This document shows positions 8,474 through 46,024 of a DNA stretch of 64,000 bases, in pieces. Every line of letters begins with the position of its first letter. Position 1 is the stretch's first letter. Source of the DNA: Planktothricoides raciborskii GIHE-MW2. Its GTDB lineage: Bacteria; Cyanobacteriota; Cyanobacteriia; Cyanobacteriales; Laspinemataceae. The position numbers and the translations under genes are program-made. The notes beneath the pieces are model-generated. The model saw only the letters and a list, made by a program, of their open reading frames with translations. It had not been told where the DNA came from and did not search any database. The stretch lies in NCBI RefSeq assembly GCF_040564635.1, contig NZ_CP159837.1, positions 4,079,001 through 4,143,000 of the forward strand, written 5' to 3'.

Positions 8474-11082
8474 TTGATTTCACTCCCACGTAGTTGCTGA
8501 AATATTCTATACATATCCTGGGCAAACTTTTGGGGATTCCATAATGGGGATAAATTTTCTGGATCTTGGGATTTTTTCAACTGTTCCCGAATGCTATTTC
8601 TTAAATTCAAATCCTGTCCTAATTTGATCCCCCATGCCACATATTCTTCCCAACTCGAAGCCAACCCTGCGGAAATGCCCAAAGTTTTTAAGCATGAATA
8701 CCCCATTCTTGCCAAAAATTGCTCCCCAAAGCGTGTCACTACGGGTAAGTGAAACCACAAAGCCTCTAGGTTATGCGTCCCCCCATTATAAGGATAAGAA
8801 TCTAAGCAGATATCCGCAATTTGGTAGATGGTGCGATGTTCTTCTTCTGTCCGATTTCTGGGCAAAAATTTCACCCGCTCAAAACTCACATTTTCTGCGG
8901 CACAAGCAGCTTGATAAACTGACTGAATGACCTGGATATCGCCTATTCCTTTATAAATTAAAATACTCTGAGATACTTGTTTGACTATCTTGATTTGGGC
9001 TAAGGCTAATTCGGGATTAAGTTTAGTGGCTGGTGCAGCGCATAGATACACCACCTGACTTGAATCAATTCCCATTTCTTGCCGTTTTGATTGACGATCC
9101 ACAGGTTCGCTGGCAAAGCCACTTACTGCCACAAAAGAGTCAGGCATTCTTAACAGTTGTTCCCGATAATAGGGTTCGACTCCCGAAGGGTGGCAATGCC
9201 GATCGCTCAAAAAGTAATTTTTATCGGAAATAAATGGGGCATCAAATCCTAACCAGGAAATACATACGGGCGCCGGTTGGCAATGAAGAATTTCGGCGTG
9301 ACGGGGAATTGTCAGGGAATCTAAATCTATTAAAATGTCTAATTCATCCTCCTCTATTTGTTTGATTATTTGTCTCCATTGGGTTTCTGTGTTTAATTGA
9401 GATGGTTGATAAAATTTAGCCGAAATTTGTTTAAATTTATCCGTGATATCATCGCTATTAGTCTTTTCTGTTTGATATAAGTAAATATTGGGAGTGATTT
9501 GGGATAATTCGGTAATAATGTCAGCGCTACACCAGCCTACTGAATGTCTCCGAAAATGGGCAGAAATGAAGCCAATTTTTACCATTTCATTGTTGTAGGG
9601 GCGAAGCATTCTGGCTGAGGAGCGATCGCTAACAGGCGAAAGTTGATTTTCCGACGGAGAAGGGCGAAGCATTCGGGCTGAGGAGCGATCGCTAACAGGC
9701 GAAAGTTGATTTTCCGACGGAGAAGGGCGAAGCATTCGGGCTGAGGAGCGATCGCTAACAGGCGAAAGTTGATTTTCCGAATGCTTCGCCCCTACTTGCG
9801 ATAAATACTGAGAAAACTGAGCGCCAATTAATTGAGAAATTTGAGAATTACCCGCTAAATCATCGCGTAACCGATTTCGACAAAATAAAAGCGAGGAATA
9901 GAGTAGATCGATGATTTCTGATAGCCAAGGATGCCACTGTTCTGGAGATAATTGTGGTTCAATTTCTTGTAATAATTTGGTGGCGATATCAGCATTTCCT
10001 GATTTGAGATAAGCGATCGCCCCTGCGGTAGCCGCCACAACTTTGGCGGGTTCATTTTGGCCTAACTGACGGCAAAATGCATAATATTGATCCGCTGCTT
10101 GTCTGACCGAGGATAAATCCCAGTTGCCTGGTTGAAAGGTGCGGATCAATTCAAATAAACCGCGATGGGTTTCTATCAGTCTGGGCTTTAATTCCAGCGA
10201 TCGCACAAAATAACTCACGGCGGCTTGAAAGCGATCGCTTGCTAACAATAGATCCTCCGATGTTGCCGCCAGTCGTCCCGTGGCTAGTCCCAAGTTGCAA
10301 TGTAACTCCGCCAAGTCTGGCTGAATTTCTAAGGCTTGCTTAAATGCCGCGATCGCCCCCTCCACCTGACCGTCATATAATCGCGCCGTCCCTAAATTAG
10401 AATAGAGTTTGGCCAACTCATCGGGCTGCTTTCGCTTCTCATCTAGAGATATCAGCTTTTCATAACAATCAATCGCCTCACCATACCGCCCCAAACTCAA
10501 CAGTAAATTTCCTAACTTCCAATCCAGCCCACTGCCAAACCGGGCATCGATCGCCAAAGCCTGCTGCCAACAAGCAACCGCCTCCTCTAACAGACCTTGC
10601 TGCTGTCGCACATTCCCCAAATTGGCATAAATTCCCGCCAGCAAGGGAGCAGAGGGGATAAGGGGCAGAGGAGAGAGAAGAGAGAAGAGAGAATTTTCCT
10701 CTTTGCTCTTTCCTCTTTCCTCTTTCCTCTTTTCTCCCCTGCTCCCCCGCTCCCCTGCTCCCCTGCTCCCCTGTTCCCCGTTCCCCGTTCCCTGATAAAT
10801 AATCGCGATCGCCCTTTCATAAAATTCAACCGCTGACGCCAATTCCCCTTGTAGATAATAAATATTGCCAATATTGGCATGAGCCGCCGCAAAATCTGGC
10901 TGAATTTCCACCGCCAGGGAATAAGCCCGTTTCGCCTCATGCAGTTTTCCTAGGGCTTGTAGGGCATTCCCCAAATCCTTATAAGCCTCGGCATCATCGG
11001 GTTTTAACTGGATCAGGCGCTGCAACTGAGCGATCGCCGCCAAAAACTTCTGTGGCTGTAAATTGTTATGGTTATTTATCAT
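8470..11082 (-). CDS. TPR protein with O-GlcNAc-transferase-like (SPINDLY-type) domain
   Basis: The 870-residue protein has N-terminal TPR repeats (from about residue 11: AIAQLQRLIQLKPDDAEAYK, DLGNALQALGKLHEAKRAYS) and further TPRs to about residue 290. The C-terminal half (about 497-866) matches glycosyltransferase family 41 of the SPINDLY type: VKIGFISAHFRRHSVGWCSA, CISWLGFDAPFISD, DICLDSYPYNGGTHNLEALW and a THNLEAL-type donor site. Such enzymes put a sugar on Ser/Thr of proteins. Two stretches look like captured repeat DNA: a charged low-complexity segment (about 97-145) between TPRs, and three copies of a 21-residue unit (about 430-496) between TPRs and the catalytic domain. The DUF3288-like gene overlaps its end. 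Confidence 0.85.
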   Translation of the reverse strand: MINNHNNLQPQKFLAAIAQLQRLIQLKPDDAEAYKDLGNALQALGKLHEAKRAYSLAVEIQPDFAAAHANIGNIYYLQGELASAVEFYERAIAIIYQGTGNGEQGSRGAGERGSRGEKRKEERGKSKEENSLFSLLSPLPLIPSAPLLAGIYANLGNVRQQQGLLEEAVACWQQALAIDARFGSGLDWKLGNLLLSLGRYGEAIDCYEKLISLDEKRKQPDELAKLYSNLGTARLYDGQVEGAIAAFKQALEIQPDLAELHCNLGLATGRLAATSEDLLLASDRFQAAVSYFVRSLELKPRLIETHRGLFELIRTFQPGNWDLSSVRQAADQYYAFCRQLGQNEPAKVVAATAGAIAYLKSGNADIATKLLQEIEPQLSPEQWHPWLSEIIDLLYSSLLFCRNRLRDDLAGNSQISQLIGAQFSQYLSQVGAKHSENQLSPVSDRSSARMLRPSPSENQLSPVSDRSSARMLRPSPSENQLSPVSDRSSARMLRPYNNEMVKIGFISAHFRRHSVGWCSADIITELSQITPNIYLYQTEKTNSDDITDKFKQISAKFYQPSQLNTETQWRQIIKQIEEDELDILIDLDSLTIPRHAEILHCQPAPVCISWLGFDAPFISDKNYFLSDRHCHPSGVEPYYREQLLRMPDSFVAVSGFASEPVDRQSKRQEMGIDSSQVVYLCAAPATKLNPELALAQIKIVKQVSQSILIYKGIGDIQVIQSVYQAACAAENVSFERVKFLPRNRTEEEHRTIYQIADICLDSYPYNGGTHNLEALWFHLPVVTRFGEQFLARMGYSCLKTLGISAGLASSWEEYVAWGIKLGQDLNLRNSIREQLKKSQDPENLSPLWNPQKFAQDMYRIFQQLRGSEIK
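9595..9796. repeat. tandemly expanded palindromic element inside a coding sequence
   Basis: Three 63-bp units begin at 9599, 9662 and 9725, each opening with GGGCGAAGCATTC and containing AGCGATCGCT. Only after the last unit does the inverse arm appear (CCGAATGCTTCGCCCCTAC, ending about 9795). The whole block is about 200 bp and stays in frame with the gene on the minus strand, where each unit encodes SENQLSPVSDRSSARMLRPSP with slight end variation. Confidence 0.9.
10648..10791. repeat. purine/pyrimidine low-complexity block inside a coding sequence
   Basis: On the plus strand this is GAGAGAAGAGAGAAGAGAG followed by repeated TTTCCTCTTTCCTC and CCCCTGCTCCCCTG phrases. The same kind of text occurs between genes elsewhere (for example 1690-1742). 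Here it lies within the TPR region of the transferase gene and is translated as a Glu/Lys/Arg/Gly-rich loop. Confidence 0.75.
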
Positions 11083-19334: not shown

Positions 19335-20205
19335 AATGTTGTTCAGAAATTAAACTGATTCTAAAATGATTTAACGCTTATAGCATTTTCCAATAGAGTA
19401 CCCCTGTAGGGGCGAAGCATTCCGGCAGATATTTGTGGTTAAAATCAAGCATTTACGACCGGAATGCTTCGCCCCCCCCGCATTCCCCTACATGAAATAA
19501 CGATTTTTCCTGGGGGCGCGGAGGCGCAAGCCGCGCCCCTAAAAGATTAACGCGGAAAGTTGCTGTAATCTGCTTTTATTCTGGTGCTATGTTTCAGAAC
19601 TTTTTTACTTTAAATCTTTTCATGGGGCTAAATTTTAGCTGTGAGGGAATAGACCGGAGATCGACCAGCCCCGCATCAGGCCAAAATATCTAGCATTTCC
19701 TAATCGCCTCTTTGTTGATGCCTGCCTTACTTGGCAAGAGCGAAAACCGCGAAATCTCAAAATTGCTCTAATGATCTAATAAATGATCTAATAAATTGGG
19801 GATTGCTACGGAAAAAAATTTCTGAGCATCTGGCTTTTTTCAGCAGATAGTTAACTTTTTCCCTGAAAAATTACCCAAAATATATATAATTGGTTTAATA
19901 TATAATTAGTTTAAGGTTCAACAATCTATATAATTGCTTATAATTGCTTGCTTCCAGGGAACTTGCTTATGAGATGGCGGCCAATCCATCAACACCAATG
20001 AAATCCGGGGATTTTCCCCAATTATCAGAGCCAAACCAGGCTCAAACCATTGTAGCAAAAGAAGTTCAATAGTTTGCTTGGGCTAGGTTCACGGTTCATT
20101 TAACATGGATCGGCGGGCATAGCCTTTGTCGGGGCCTGTGGCCATTCGTCCTGATTTCCTTCATGTCATCATTTACTGACAAACTGGAGCCAGACCTGAA
20201 AAATT
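19335..20205. other. intergenic region, 871 bases, with a palindromic element
   Basis: Divergent gap between trpB and the CheB/CheR kinase. It contains the 70-bp palindromic element (19406-19475), a GC-rich hairpin (19513-19539, GGGGCGCGG with CCGCGCCCC) and AT-rich DNA with TATATATAAT-like phrases around 19880-19900 that may be promoter. I see no credible gene. Confidence 0.6.
19406..19475. repeat. solo copy of the ~70-bp palindromic (MITE-like) element
   Basis: The left arm GTAGGGGCGAAGCATTCCGG is matched by the right arm CCGGAATGCTTCGCCCC. The centre (GCAGATATTTGTGGTTAAAA and onward) resembles the centres of the copies near 28500 and 60900. It has no coding capacity. Confidence 0.85.
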
Positions 20206-28483: not shown

Positions 28484-28555
28484 ATGGGCGAAGCATTCAC
28501 GCAGATATCTGATGGCTAAAATCACGATATTTCTAAAGGAATGCTTCGCCCCTAC
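28484..28555. repeat. solo copy of the ~70-bp palindromic (MITE-like) element
   Basis: Left arm GGGCGAAGCATTC and right arm GGAATGCTTCGCCCCTAC are inverse copies. The centre GCAGATATCTGATGGCTAAA aligns with the centres of the copies at 19406 and 60864. It lies between grxC and the TpsB gene. Confidence 0.85.
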
Positions 28556-31026: not shown

Positions 31027-32559
31027 CTAAAAATCAAAATAAATATAAGATTGTCCGGTTTCTGGTGCAAATAGCCAAACCACATAAAGTAATAGGGGAA
31101 CTAATAGGATTTTTACCGGCCAATTAATTTGCACTTTCAATGTTTTATATAAAACATAATAAACTGCCATGAAAAACCATAAAAATCCTAACAATAAAGC
31201 CAAATCTAATCGCTCAATTCCCAAATTTTCGCCATAAACTTTCTGGACAAATTGAATATCCCCAGAATTTCCCCACAAATGGGAAAATACCCAAGTAAAA
31301 TCTTTGAACACGGGTAGTCTAAAGACCACCCAAGACATAAATACCATGCTTTGAGTCAAAAACCAAGCCAGCACCACACCGGGAATACTTTCCCACCAAA
31401 GTTTAAAAACATTCACTCGTTCAGAAATGGCATCGGTGATCCGGTGAATCACCAAAGCTAAACCATGTAGTCCTCCCCAAATAATAAATCCCCACGCCGC
31501 CCCATGCCAAATTCCGGCAATCAGCATGACCATTAACAAATTCAAGCAAGTTCTAATCAAGCCTTTGCGGGAACCCCCCAAGGGAAAGTAAAGATAATTC
31601 CGCAGCCAATCCCCTAAACTAATATGCCAACGTCGCCAAAAGTCCGCAATATTGGTACTAAAATAAGGAAAATCAAAGTTTTCTGGTAAATTAAATCCTA
31701 GTAATAAGGCGGTGCCTCGGGCGAGATCCACATAGCCACTAAAATCTAAATAAAGTTGAAACCCATAAGCAAAAATTGCCAGCCATAAATCTCCACTGCC
31801 AGCCCTTTGTAAATTGTCAAAAGTCAAATTGACAAAAGTCCCAAGGCGATCGGCGATCAGTCCTTTTTTCACCGCACCGCCAGCAATTAACCACAGCCCT
31901 TCAATGATTTGATGAGATGCTGGAAAATGAAGGGTTTTCAGTTGTCTAATAAAGTTATGATATCGGGTAATTGGCCCAGAAATTAGTTTAGGAAAGAAAA
32001 ATTTATAAGCCGCAAATCGGAGTAATTGACGACTCGGCGGGGCGCCCCGATAAACATCGACTAAATAAGCAATACATTCAAAACTAAAAAAGCTAATCCC
32101 TAGGGGTGGGGTGATATTTTCGGCGTACCAGGTGGCAATTTCTCCCGCTATTGGCCAATTGAACAAAGTTTCGGCGGTGGTGCAGAAAAATGCCACATAT
32201 TTAAAGCCAAATAAGAGTAAGACATTGGACAGAATGCCAATCGACAAAATTAGATATTGGAAATTTACCAGGGTGACAGAGGCGATTTTTCCGGTGATTG
32301 TTTCATGGGGGCTATCGACTTGTGCGGAGTTTAGTTTTCCGACCCGCACGCTGTTACTCCAGCCCAATACTCGGCCAAAGCTATAGTTAATTAAGATGCT
32401 GAATAAGAGCAGGGGAATGTACTTAACTTGCAGGGATGCGTAAAATATCAAACTGGCAATCAGCAGCAACCACAGGCGCGATCGCTGTTTTTGCACCGTC
32501 CAGTAAATCACTAGAAGACTTAGCAGGAACAGGAAGTAAAAAATCGAGATAAATGTCAT
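31027..32559 (-). CDS. MBOAT-family O-acyltransferase (AlgI-like)
   Basis: The 510-residue protein has about ten membrane segments and the MBOAT signature: LDFSGYVDLARGTALLLGFN, NIADFWRRWHISLGDWLRNY, YFPLGGSRKGLIRTCLN and the catalytic histidine in MLIAGIWHGAAWGFIIWGGL. AlgI-type enzymes move acyl groups across the membrane to acylate exopolysaccharides. No AlgJ/AlgX-like partner is adjacent, so the acceptor is unknown. Length is normal. Downstream on this strand lies TpsB after a 481-base gap. Confidence 0.9.
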   Translation of the reverse strand: MTFISIFYFLFLLSLLVIYWTVQKQRSRLWLLLIASLIFYASLQVKYIPLLLFSILINYSFGRVLGWSNSVRVGKLNSAQVDSPHETITGKIASVTLVNFQYLILSIGILSNVLLLFGFKYVAFFCTTAETLFNWPIAGEIATWYAENITPPLGISFFSFECIAYLVDVYRGAPPSRQLLRFAAYKFFFPKLISGPITRYHNFIRQLKTLHFPASHQIIEGLWLIAGGAVKKGLIADRLGTFVNLTFDNLQRAGSGDLWLAIFAYGFQLYLDFSGYVDLARGTALLLGFNLPENFDFPYFSTNIADFWRRWHISLGDWLRNYLYFPLGGSRKGLIRTCLNLLMVMLIAGIWHGAAWGFIIWGGLHGLALVIHRITDAISERVNVFKLWWESIPGVVLAWFLTQSMVFMSWVVFRLPVFKDFTWVFSHLWGNSGDIQFVQKVYGENLGIERLDLALLLGFLWFFMAVYYVLYKTLKVQINWPVKILLVPLLLYVVWLFAPETGQSYIYFDF

Positions 32560-32610: not shown

Positions 32611-33133
32611 GGGATGAACGCATTCCCGCATCTATGTTATCGGTTCGCGATCGAATATTTCTACGCTATGGCAACCCGCATCTATGTTATCGGTTTATTC
32701 CGAATATTTCTATGCTATGGCAAAGTAAGGGATGAACGCATTCCCGCATCTATGTTATCGGTTTATTCCGAATATTTCTATGCTATGGCAAAGTAAGGGA
32801 TGAACGCATTCCCGCATCTATGTTATCGGTTTATTCCGAATACTTCTACGCTCTGGCAAAGTAAGGGATGAACGCATTCCCGCATCTATGTTATCGGTTT
32901 ATTCCGAATATTTCTATGCTCTGGCAAAGTAAGGGCGAAGCATTCCCGCATCTATGTTATCGGTTTATTCCGAATATTTCTATGCTCTGGCAAAGTAAGG
33001 GCGAAGCATTCCCGCATCTATGTTATCGGTTTATTCCGAATATTTCTATGCTCTGGCAAAGTAAGGGCGAAGCATTCCCGCATCTATGTTATCGGTTTAT
33101 TCCGAATACTTCTACGGGAATGCTTCGCCCCTA
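32611..33133. repeat. tandem array of seven palindromic-element units with one closing arm
   Basis: Units start at 32611, 32729, 32797, 32865, 32933, 32999 and 33065. The first is longer (118 bp) because of an internal duplication; the next three are 68 bp and the following two 66 bp. The early units open with GGGATGAACGCATTCCCG, the later with GGGCGAAGCATTCCCG. All contain GCATCTATGTTATCGGTT. Only the last unit ends with the inverse arm CGGGAATGCTTCGCCCCTAC. The whole unit is repeated, without unique spacers. Confidence 0.93.
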
Positions 33134-33155
33134 CAGCCCTACAGCCTTACAGCCC

Positions 33156-35951
33156 TTAGTTAGATTGCAACTGGGCATTTAAGATTTGGCTAATGCGTGT
33201 ACGAGTTTCTTGTAAATGAGCCACCGTTGCCAAGTCCAAATCATTTTTGCGCTTTTTCAGGGTGCTTTCTAGGGCTTTCTCTAGCTGATGCAAATTGTAC
33301 CAAGCTAAGGTGCGGGCATCTTCGGGGACTCGGGTTTGCCGCAAGACCATCGCCCCTAAAAGATTTAAATGTTCCCGTTGCAACGATCGCCGGATGGTGG
33401 AAATTTGGGTTAATTGGTTGCTAGACCCGAGCACTTCGGTCCAAATTCCTTGCTTGAGGGTATCAAACAATTCGGGAATGGTCAAAGACTCAGTCCCTGA
33501 AGTTTTCAGTTCCAGGTCACGCAGACGCATGAGACGGGGGGGGGATAGCAGGGAACTGAGGGCAACTTGTTGCAGGTAGAGAATGCGATCGCCGATGGGA
33601 TAATCCAAGGGAAAGACTAGGGTTCGAGTCCCCCAGTGCGCCCAGCGTTCCGGGGCTAATTTATTCAGCAGTTCTGGGGAAAACTGAAAGGCATTTTCAT
33701 CAAAAACATAAGACTGAATCAGTTGCAGGGCTTCTCGTTGTTGTTCCACGGGAATGGGTTCAAAGGGCAACCGACGATGAACGCTTCCTGGTCGGATCCG
33801 TTGAAAAGACTGCCCACCCACATAGAGGGTAATATTTCTCACCTGACGAAGATAGTAAAAATAAAGACTATCAAAGCGATCGCGCACTTCACTATAACTA
33901 TCCCCACTGACTAAGTAGCGGCGATCCAACCGTTCCCATAAAGTGCGGGCATTTTCCAACTGCCATTGGGAATATTGCAACATATCGCTGCTTAAATCAA
34001 AGGCATTGGCGAATGGATCGAGAATATCAAAGGCATCCTCATCCGTAGAATAAGCTAACTCTGGTTCCACCGAAGATCGCTGGGCAATTTGTTCTATTAC
34101 ACGCCATTCGGCGTCTGGGGAAAAGGCATCTGTCGGTTGATAGCCATAAGTAATCGCCCATTGATCGTAAGGCCCAACCACTTGAGAAAAATAGTCACCC
34201 TGTGCAATCCCAGGGGGGGCTAAATTCACTGGCAAATAGTCCATCACTGATGATGCCAAACCTTTTTCCTGGGTAATAGTGCGATCGTGTAACTCTTCCG
34301 GGGTTAACATCGTACTGGCATGAAAATTATGGCGCAATCCCAGGGTATGTCCGACTTCATGGGCGGTGAGAAATCGCAAATATTGATGAATAAACTCTTC
34401 CATTTCCTGACTGCTGGGCAATACATTATTCACCATTGACAAAGACATGGCCGCGATCGCGAAATTTTGGGCGGCTTCCATACCATAACAGAGGTCATGT
34501 TTATCCCGCAATTGAGAAAACAATCCCCCAACATTTGACCCATTTTTAAATATGGCTTGACCGGGGGAAAAATCCTGTAAAATATCAGAAAATTCTTGCC
34601 CCATACAGTTGGATAAATTGGCCAAATTGTTGATTCCCTGCTGTTGGCTGCTGGGAGTTCCGATATAGTTGCGATATTCTCCTTTCATAATTCTAATTAC
34701 ATTGGCATCCAAGATGATATCCGCATCTAAAATTTGTCCTGTCATGGGGTTGACTCGTGATGGGCCTAAACCCAAAAACCAAGGTTGAAATGAACTCGAC
34801 CAGCGAATCGTGTTGTAGCGCACATCGGCGGGATCCCAGGTGGCATCGTCCGGCATTTGTTTGACAGCGATCGCATCAATAAAACCGGCTGCTTCAAAAG
34901 CTTTATTCCACATTAAAACCCCTTCCCGAATGGCATCCCGATATTCCAGAGGCACCGTATTTTCGATCCAGAAAACAATCGGTTCTTTCGGCGGAGATAA
35001 GGGGGCATTCGGGTCTTGTTTTTCCAAATGCCAGCGGTTAATATATCGGACAAAGGGTTCTTTTCTCTTTTCCGAAAAATCCCGATAAGCGGTGACAAAA
35101 TAGCCCACTCGTTCATCCGCTAACCGAGGACGATAGCCATTGTTCATCGGCATTTCTGAAAAACTATAACGCACTTGTAGGGTAAAGCCCCGGCTATCCG
35201 GCAGACTAGGAATTGAAACTAAAGGATTATCACTTTTAAAGCCATAAACCGACTCAATTTCTACGTTTAAAGGAAAAGCTTTGGTTTCCCCAAAATAAGA
35301 CTGATTGTTATCTTTTTTATAGCTAGGATCTAATAAAATCGGCAAATAATCACTCAGTTGACTCAGATCCTTTTCTGTCATTAGCAAGTCATTCAGGCTA
35401 ATTAACAGGGTTTGTCGCGTGGGATGAATACTTTTAATCGGCAGGGAGTACAGCACCGAGTCACTAAAAGAACTATCCAGCGATCGCTGCAAGGGGTCGC
35501 CCACTTCCGTCCTAAAGTTCACATTTCTGACCACAAAATTGACTTTATTTTGGACTTGTTGGAAATAAAACATGATATCTTGCAACGGCATTCCTCTTAA
35601 CAGAGGCGCTTGGCCAATTCCTGAATTTAAGGTGATAATACAGAGAAAATTTTGATTAAGTTGCTCTGGCTTAACTTCTAAGTAAATTGCTGAAAAATCT
35701 TTCTTTCTATATAGATTGAATAAACCCTCTAATTTTTCCGTATTTTTAATGACTTCATCAAAAGGAAGTAGTTGTTCAGACCCGGCCAAGGTGGAGTCTG
35801 AATTAGCATTTACTGACGCTGGAGATGCTTGATTTAATGAGGTTTGAGCCGTGACTGCCCCAGCCCAAATTGCCGCCAAACCCAAACTAAGTCCTAAGCA
35901 TAACAAGGACTTGAAAGGGTTGATATTTTTTGGTTCTTTTTGCTTCTTCAT
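33156..35951 (-). CDS. large secreted zinc metalloprotease (metzincin, DUF5117-type)
   Basis: The 931-residue protein has an N-terminal signal peptide (SLLCLGLSLGLAAIWAGAVTA) and the extended zinc motif TAHEVGHTLGLRHNFHAS (HExxHxxGxxH, near residue 531) with a later Met-turn-like SSVMDYLPVN. The N-terminal part (IYLEVKPEQLNQNFLCIITL) and the long C-terminal helical part match the bacterial zinc-dependent protease group annotated with DUF5117 and DUF4953. It is probably periplasmic or extracellular. Substrate unknown. It is transcribed toward the tandem array, which starts 22 bases past its stop. Confidence 0.87.
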   Translation of the reverse strand: MKKQKEPKNINPFKSLLCLGLSLGLAAIWAGAVTAQTSLNQASPASVNANSDSTLAGSEQLLPFDEVIKNTEKLEGLFNLYRKKDFSAIYLEVKPEQLNQNFLCIITLNSGIGQAPLLRGMPLQDIMFYFQQVQNKVNFVVRNVNFRTEVGDPLQRSLDSSFSDSVLYSLPIKSIHPTRQTLLISLNDLLMTEKDLSQLSDYLPILLDPSYKKDNNQSYFGETKAFPLNVEIESVYGFKSDNPLVSIPSLPDSRGFTLQVRYSFSEMPMNNGYRPRLADERVGYFVTAYRDFSEKRKEPFVRYINRWHLEKQDPNAPLSPPKEPIVFWIENTVPLEYRDAIREGVLMWNKAFEAAGFIDAIAVKQMPDDATWDPADVRYNTIRWSSSFQPWFLGLGPSRVNPMTGQILDADIILDANVIRIMKGEYRNYIGTPSSQQQGINNLANLSNCMGQEFSDILQDFSPGQAIFKNGSNVGGLFSQLRDKHDLCYGMEAAQNFAIAAMSLSMVNNVLPSSQEMEEFIHQYLRFLTAHEVGHTLGLRHNFHASTMLTPEELHDRTITQEKGLASSVMDYLPVNLAPPGIAQGDYFSQVVGPYDQWAITYGYQPTDAFSPDAEWRVIEQIAQRSSVEPELAYSTDEDAFDILDPFANAFDLSSDMLQYSQWQLENARTLWERLDRRYLVSGDSYSEVRDRFDSLYFYYLRQVRNITLYVGGQSFQRIRPGSVHRRLPFEPIPVEQQREALQLIQSYVFDENAFQFSPELLNKLAPERWAHWGTRTLVFPLDYPIGDRILYLQQVALSSLLSPPRLMRLRDLELKTSGTESLTIPELFDTLKQGIWTEVLGSSNQLTQISTIRRSLQREHLNLLGAMVLRQTRVPEDARTLAWYNLHQLEKALESTLKKRKNDLDLATVAHLQETRTRISQILNAQLQSN

Positions 35952-45037: not shown

Positions 45038-46024
45038 ATGTTTCCAACTCATCGCCCCCGTCGTCTGCGTAGTCATCCTCAGTTACGCCGGATGGTTCGA
45101 GAAAATATCGTGACGACCAATGATTTAATTTACCCACTGTTTGCCGTACCGGGAATTGGGATCGCCAACGAAGTAAAATCCATGCCCGGAGTTTATCAGC
45201 TTTCCGTGGACAAAATTGTTGAAGAGGCGAAACAAGTCTATGACTTAGGCATTCCGGCGATTATCCTATTTGGCATTCCCGAAAGCAAAGATACGGAAGC
45301 AACTGGCGCGTGGCATGATTGCGGCATTGTCCAAAAAGCTGCCACTGCCGTCAAAGAGGCCGTACCCGATCTGATTGTGATTGCCGATACTTGTCTATGT
45401 GAATACACCAGTCATGGTCACTGTGGCTATTTGCAAGTGGGTGACTTGACCGGACGGGTACTGAATGACCCCACCTTAGAATTACTAAAGAAAACCGCCG
45501 TGTCTCAAGTGAAAGCCGGGGCGGATATTATTGCCCCTTCAGGGATGATGGATGGGTTTGTGCAAGCGATTCGGTCTGGTTTAGATGAAGCCGGATATGA
45601 AAATATTCCCATTTTGGCCTATTCGGCCAAGTATGCCTCTGCTTATTATGGGCCGTTCCGGGATGCGGCCGATGGGGCGCCCCAATTTGGCGATCGCAGT
45701 ACCTATCAAATGGATCCGGGGAATGGCCAAGAAGCCATCAAAGAAATTGAACTGGACATCGCTGAAGGGGCAGATATGCTCATGGTCAAGCCAGCTTTAG
45801 CCTACATGGATATTATCTGGCGGGTCAAACAAGCCACCAACTTGCCGGTAGCGGCTTATAACGTCTCTGGGGAATATTCTATGGTCAAAGCCGCTGCCCT
45901 CAACGGCTGGATTTCCGAAGAGAAAGTAGTGATGGAAACCTTAACCAGTTTTAAACGAGCCGGTGCCGACTTAATTTTGACCTATCACGCCAAAGATGCG
46001 GCTCGATGGTTAAAAAATGCTTAA
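45038..46024 (+). CDS. hemB: delta-aminolevulinic acid dehydratase (porphobilinogen synthase)
   Basis: The 328-residue protein has the zinc site [16 protein letters not shown], the two Schiff-base lysines in [16 protein letters not shown] and [16 protein letters not shown], and a full (beta/alpha)8 barrel length. HemB joins two aminolevulinates to porphobilinogen, the step before haem and chlorophyll. The frame opens at 44969, but ATG 45038 gives the usual [19 protein letters not shown] start and is my choice. It is monocistronic. Confidence 0.96.

Follow-up and report, generated by a model that had tools for sequence, protein, structure and literature searches.

A polar, GTAG-tagged stem-loop element and its one-sided tandem arrays in Planktothricoides raciborskii GIHE-MW2

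The tandem array described here is probably a local expansion of a polar, REP-like stem-loop element, formed by hairpin-assisted strand slippage with short homology. It is situated in a 64,000-nucleotide stretch of the Planktothricoides raciborskii GIHE-MW2 genome (hereafter the window), where a second array of the same form and two single complete elements are also present (Table 1).

Layout of the array and anatomy of the element

The array included eight copies of the loop ("body"), seven arms facing in the same direction and one closing arm. The body copies were 45 nt long, with start-to-start spacings of 50, 68, 68, 68, 66, 66 and 66. Arms preceded seven of the eight bodies, the first four of them being GGGATGAACGCATTC and the last three GGGCGAAGCATTC, and the inverse arm CGGGAATGCTTCGCCCC occurred a single time. 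The preliminary description had reported same-facing arms with the inverse arm once at the far end, and this was correct; the seven units with an internal duplication in unit 1 that it had counted are a real array, but one of eight bodies, of which one has no arm. The body was related to the loops of the single elements (mean alignment score 5.6 vs 1.6 ± 1.2 when shuffled; the highest shuffled mean in 200 shuffles was 5.0). The array had a TRF score of 782, and the final unit folded with z = -7.5 on the tagged strand vs z = -0.3 for an internal unit. The segment GTTCGCGATCG in the loop of the outermost unit was present also in the outermost unit of the array of the sister species (G001).

The neighbouring genes, named from their translations, encode an MBOAT-type protein (31027-32559, minus strand) and a zinc-metalloprotease-like protein (33156-35951, minus strand). 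Directly after the closing arm, an 8-bp tandem repeat, CTACAGCC, covers positions 33131-33156 up to the stop codon of the latter gene; G001 has one copy fewer of it.

Table 1. Positions of the arrays, their parts and the single elements in the window
Feature	Position	Strand	Remarks
Whole array	32611..33134	-	Native (GTAG-first) orientation is the minus strand
GTAG tag	33131..33134	-	CTAC on plus; conserved element end
Single closing arm	33115..33131	-	The element's tagged 5' arm; CGGGAATGCTTCGCCCC on plus
Final unit	33065..33130	-	Sole unit able to form the full hairpin
66-bp unit	32999..33064	-	Arm GGGCGAAGCATTC
66-bp unit	32933..32998	-	Arm GGGCGAAGCATTC
68-bp unit	32865..32932	-	Arm variant GGGATGAACGCATTC
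68-bp unit	32797..32864	-	Arm variant GGGATGAACGCATTC
68-bp unit	32729..32796	-	Arm variant GGGATGAACGCATTC
Body copy	32675..32728	-	Without arm
Outermost unit	32611..32674	-	Arm variant GGGATGAACGCATTC, loop with GTTCGCGATCG
Second array, same form	9599..9795	-	Three 63-bp units and one closing tagged arm
Single complete element	19410..19474
Single complete element	28486..28551		Copy also in the sister species

The element has the structure 5'-(CT)GTAG-GGGCGAAGCATTC-loop-GAATGCTTCGCCC-T-3' and is about 72-75 bp in size, with a stem of 16-18 bp, a loop of about 34-40 nt and a 3' end of T or TTAC. The arm had 201 matches with at most one mismatch in the single-contig genome of 7,215,835 bases, while the reversed-pattern control had none. 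Complete arm-loop-arm elements numbered 131 in this genome, 69 in G001 and 21 in the genome G002, and the tagged arm GTAGGGGCGAAGCATTC was found in 39 of the 390 cyanobacterial genomes sampled.

Conservation around the complete elements stopped just outside the GTAG, which was present on at least one side in 85 of the 90 distinct elements. A tag of the TAG type was present on exactly one side in 76 of them, and the element is therefore polar; altogether 47% of the arm ends carried the tag. The middle of the arm, CGAAGCAT, was almost invariant except for one G/A position, and this core (e.g. window positions 33065-33077) contains GCGAAGC, known as a DNA mini-hairpin of unusual stability. The two pairs adjoining the arm on its inner side covaried, being paired in 96 and 94% vs about 50% with the sides shuffled. 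The stem is continuous on the tagged strand, where a G-T pair lets the tag pair with the TTAC that follows the far arm, whereas on the other strand it is interrupted by an A-C mismatch; the difference in fold energy was small (-25.5 kcal/mol on the tagged strand vs -23.7 on the other). A compact palindrome, GTAGGGGCGAATGGCCATTCGCCCCTAC, and its relative GTAGGGGCGATTCGCGAATCGCCCCTAC, both starting with GTAGGGGCGA, were seen beside or inside copies of the element at three loci (L054, L057 and L103).

A search of the element against Rfam gave no match near the gathering score, and searches for promoter-like sites and terminators found none of the former and three weak matches to the latter. An open reading frame of 104 amino acids on the plus strand (32868-33182) runs through the 66-bp units and is probably fortuitous. 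A coding role was rejected, the array periods (49-68) having no preference for multiples of three, and so was a two-ended cut-and-paste MITE, since the 76 elements above are tagged at a single end and the arms form a stem with compensated changes.

Polarity, linkers and differences between genomes

Arrays were enumerated by pattern searches and by a tag-blind scan of 1.44 Mb (20% of the genome, in stretches often chosen around known copies), and the scan yielded 26 arrays built as (arm-loop)n-closing arm. Seven further arrays were found in three other genera. The closing arm carried the GTAG tag in all seven of these and in all 26 of the scanned arrays, the latter having a probability near 3e-9 given 47% tagged ends, if the arrays are independent. 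Tagged internal arms were absent from the 20 scanned arrays with closely similar units. Arms in the same direction without an intervening opposite arm, a count that includes a few nested or compound copies, numbered 45 in this genome, 29 in Planktothricoides sp. SR001, 10 in G001 and 9 in the genome G004.

In their native orientation the arrays read GTAG-arm-loop-arm-(linker-loop-arm)n, with the tagged arm present once and the loop and distal arm repeated. The extra units have no tag and lack most or all of the tagged arm. This order places the growth on the untagged 3' side. According to the preliminary description the element grows by copying before its right arm; the copied unit does exclude the closing arm, but that "right arm" is the GTAG-tagged 5' arm on the minus strand. 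The element is polar and its two arms are not equivalent. Nor is it the element alone that is copied, as the repeated unit also has a short linker, at many sites a copy of the flank.

Each linker begins where the distal arm ends. Often it opens with a copy of the bases that follow the element on the 3' side at that site, and it then runs into the inner part of the tagged arm or into a point deeper in the loop. Linker matches of at least 6 nt were found to the own flank in 46% vs 6.6% to the flanks of other sites, and none of 5000 permutations was as good. Such an excess is characteristic of tandem duplication between short homologies. Because the linker belongs to the repeated unit and is at many sites a copy of the flank, the duplication was one of a partial element together with flank. 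The linkers at sites 5406256, 3638132 and 4088599 and most of those in the window array do not match the flank as it is today and may have arisen by another route.

Copy number varied between closely related genomes. The neighbouring MBOAT protein was 100% identical in SR001 and 91% identical in the metagenome-assembled genome behind G001, and the window array had four bodies in the former and three in the latter. In SR001, a short-read draft in which some collapse of the array may have occurred, it was 268 bp shorter, corresponding to exactly two 68-bp and two 66-bp units. The array at 2216068 had four units here vs three in SR001, while those at 45654, 2436136, 4088599 and 6360540 had equal numbers of junctions in the two; scoring in SR001 was limited by a contig end at 2265481 and by flank or locus at 5406256 and 3638132.

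In the sister species single elements were found at sites 2436136, 2265481, 5406256 and 207783, where this genome has five units, six units and three whole-element copies, three units and two units, respectively, and site 4018429 has an extra partial unit in G001 and none in this genome; at most sites these differences are without outgroup rooting as to gain vs loss of units. Site 2605121 was empty in G001, with no clear target-site duplication. At 647104 the hairpin is located mid-way in a larger TA-flanked inverted-repeat element with ends of the type TACAGCGGTTTTC...GAAAATC..TGTA; the larger element, with its TA duplication, is missing from the sister species.

Some other insertions and arrays were observed as well. 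An inverted-repeat insertion of another kind (TACCATTTACAAAAA...TTTTTGTAAATGGTA) directly adjoins the array in the sister species (G001:C42, near 131900), and yet another insertion splits the loop of the element in the ortholog of 2265481. In a genome of another family (G132), two-unit arrays with a common linker, TTACAGGA, were present at five separate sites (L324, L327, L329, L331 and L333), with loop variants agreeing within a site and differing between sites, as if the duplications were independent.

Possible routes of array growth

Hairpin-assisted slippage, the probable route, would begin with a founding duplication. The duplicated segment would have one boundary within the tagged 5' arm, or slightly beyond its inner end, and the other a few bases past the element, in the 3' flank. 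The tagged strand, when newly synthesised, would fold arm-loop-arm into a hairpin; its 3' end, located in the flank, would re-anneal to the template at a short homologous stretch close to where the tagged arm ends on its inner side, and the loop and distal arm would then be copied a second time. This would yield GTAG-arm-loop-arm with further loop-arm units behind it on short linkers, each without the tag and with little or nothing of the tagged arm. With two units present, slippage between direct repeats could alter the unit number. Folding and re-annealing near the inner arm end would also let the length of the hairpin set the unit length of 49-68. The small energy difference between the strands and the linkers unlike the present flank count against this model, and the exceptionless polarity is not obviously explained by slippage alone.

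Polarity is accounted for at least as well by a nick at the 3' CT. In this alternative, growth would be driven by a TnpA-REP-type (Y1/HuH) transposase nicking the tagged strand at the CT that immediately follows the hairpin. It is considered unlikely on balance but still a live rival because the element is bordered by CT, as REPs are at their cleavage sites. Units would be added on the 3' side either by repair starting at the free end or by a single-strand copy inserting at that point, and the unstable palindrome formed where a distal arm meets a new tagged arm would be trimmed, with loss of the tag and its arm. Counted simply as presence of the dinucleotide, CT immediately preceded the GTAG in 37% and occupied the 3' end in 75%, against a background of 4.3%, and TnpA-REP proteins cut REPs at such CT positions on the GTAG strand only (PMC8266576). 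Also in line with such a nick are the linkers at 5406256 and 3638132, which have CT or T at their start and retain a piece of the arm instead of the own flank. However, plain tandem duplication is indicated by the many sites with own-flank linkers, and among the Y1 genes of this genome and of 13 relatives with flanking sequence none had these arms within about 1.5 kb, although a partner may lie elsewhere.

The Y1 genes of this genome, near 1730501, 2487602, 2510806 and 6606342, are each located among a different family of palindromic repeats (AGTCGGTTAAAACCGACT; AGAAACCGGGTTTCT, beside two of the genes; and GTAGGGTGGGCAATGCCCACC). Apparently, several REP/RAYT systems are present in one genome.

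Slippage independent of the element, with the hairpin and tag irrelevant and the polarity a by-product of where short homologies lie, is more doubtful still. Tandem repeats commonly change in number by whole units, and the window holds many unrelated ones, but more than 20 separate members of a single family were affected, all 26 scanned arrays have the same polarity, and the junctions cluster near the inner end of the tagged arm. An assembly artefact is very improbable: SR001 is a draft from 250-bp paired reads (PMC5460452), in which short direct repeats can collapse, and G001 a metagenome assembly of 110 contigs, but the array was present in three independent assemblies with different unit variants, this genome is one 7.2-Mb contig, and SR001 assembled a five-unit array at another site.

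Relation to known repeats and significance

The element is REP-like but is not filed as a REP, as it is not of the small size of REPs and no flanking RAYT was found. Enterobacterial BIMEs alternate whole REPs in opposite orientation, whereas the units here are partial and all in one direction. The two have in common palindromic repeats in clusters of variable size (PMC2817692).

A close resemblance in anatomy is to the GTAG-tagged REPs of Di Nocera et al. 2013, which include the cyanobacterial families GTAG-12, -15 and -16: a terminal GTAG, a stem-loop, high copy number, and subfamilies with compensated stem changes and G-T pairs (PMC3733652). Clusters of these REPs reiterated in tandem together with flanking DNA have already been described, but the tandem units are whole repeats or dimers, head-to-tail dimers being rare, while the unit here is without the tag and its arm (PMC3733652). 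The described REPs are also smaller, 20-40 bp with stems of 5-13 bp and loops mostly of 2-15, against about 72-75 bp, 16-18 bp and about 34 in the present element (PMC3733652). With the TnpA-REP/REPtron system the element shares the GTAG on one strand, the hairpin and the directly adjoining CT; it differs in that no cognate Y1 gene was found beside these arms and in that its CT sites are candidate cleavage sites (PMC8266576).

The BrickBuilt MITE of Porphyromonas gingivalis likewise has a variable-number tandem repeat inside a dispersed element with inverted ends, but its sequence is unrelated, its repeat is 23 bp, and a leader and tail lie outside the array, whereas here the arm and loop themselves are the repeated unit (PMC4596501). 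A literature search with the letters of the arm gave one cyanobacterial report, in which no family or array was described: in Microcystis aeruginosa PCC 7806 the same arm sequence was reported only as a 16-bp inverted repeat, GGGCGAAGCATTCGGA, within two 152-bp direct repeats beside the MaOC1 toxin-antitoxin genes (PMC7935541).

One rule, the tagged arm once and the loop and distal arm repeated, links dispersed REP-like palindromes with variable tandem repeats. It holds in every array examined, in four genera, and makes the growth mechanism of REP clusters directly testable. Directional growth, in which a single-strand transposase nicks the GTAG strand at the 3' CT and arrays extend from that end only, is held to be rather improbable; if true, it would mean that a REP-like element has an inbuilt process of repeat expansion in one direction. 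The arrays could also serve as strain markers in bloom-forming cyanobacteria.
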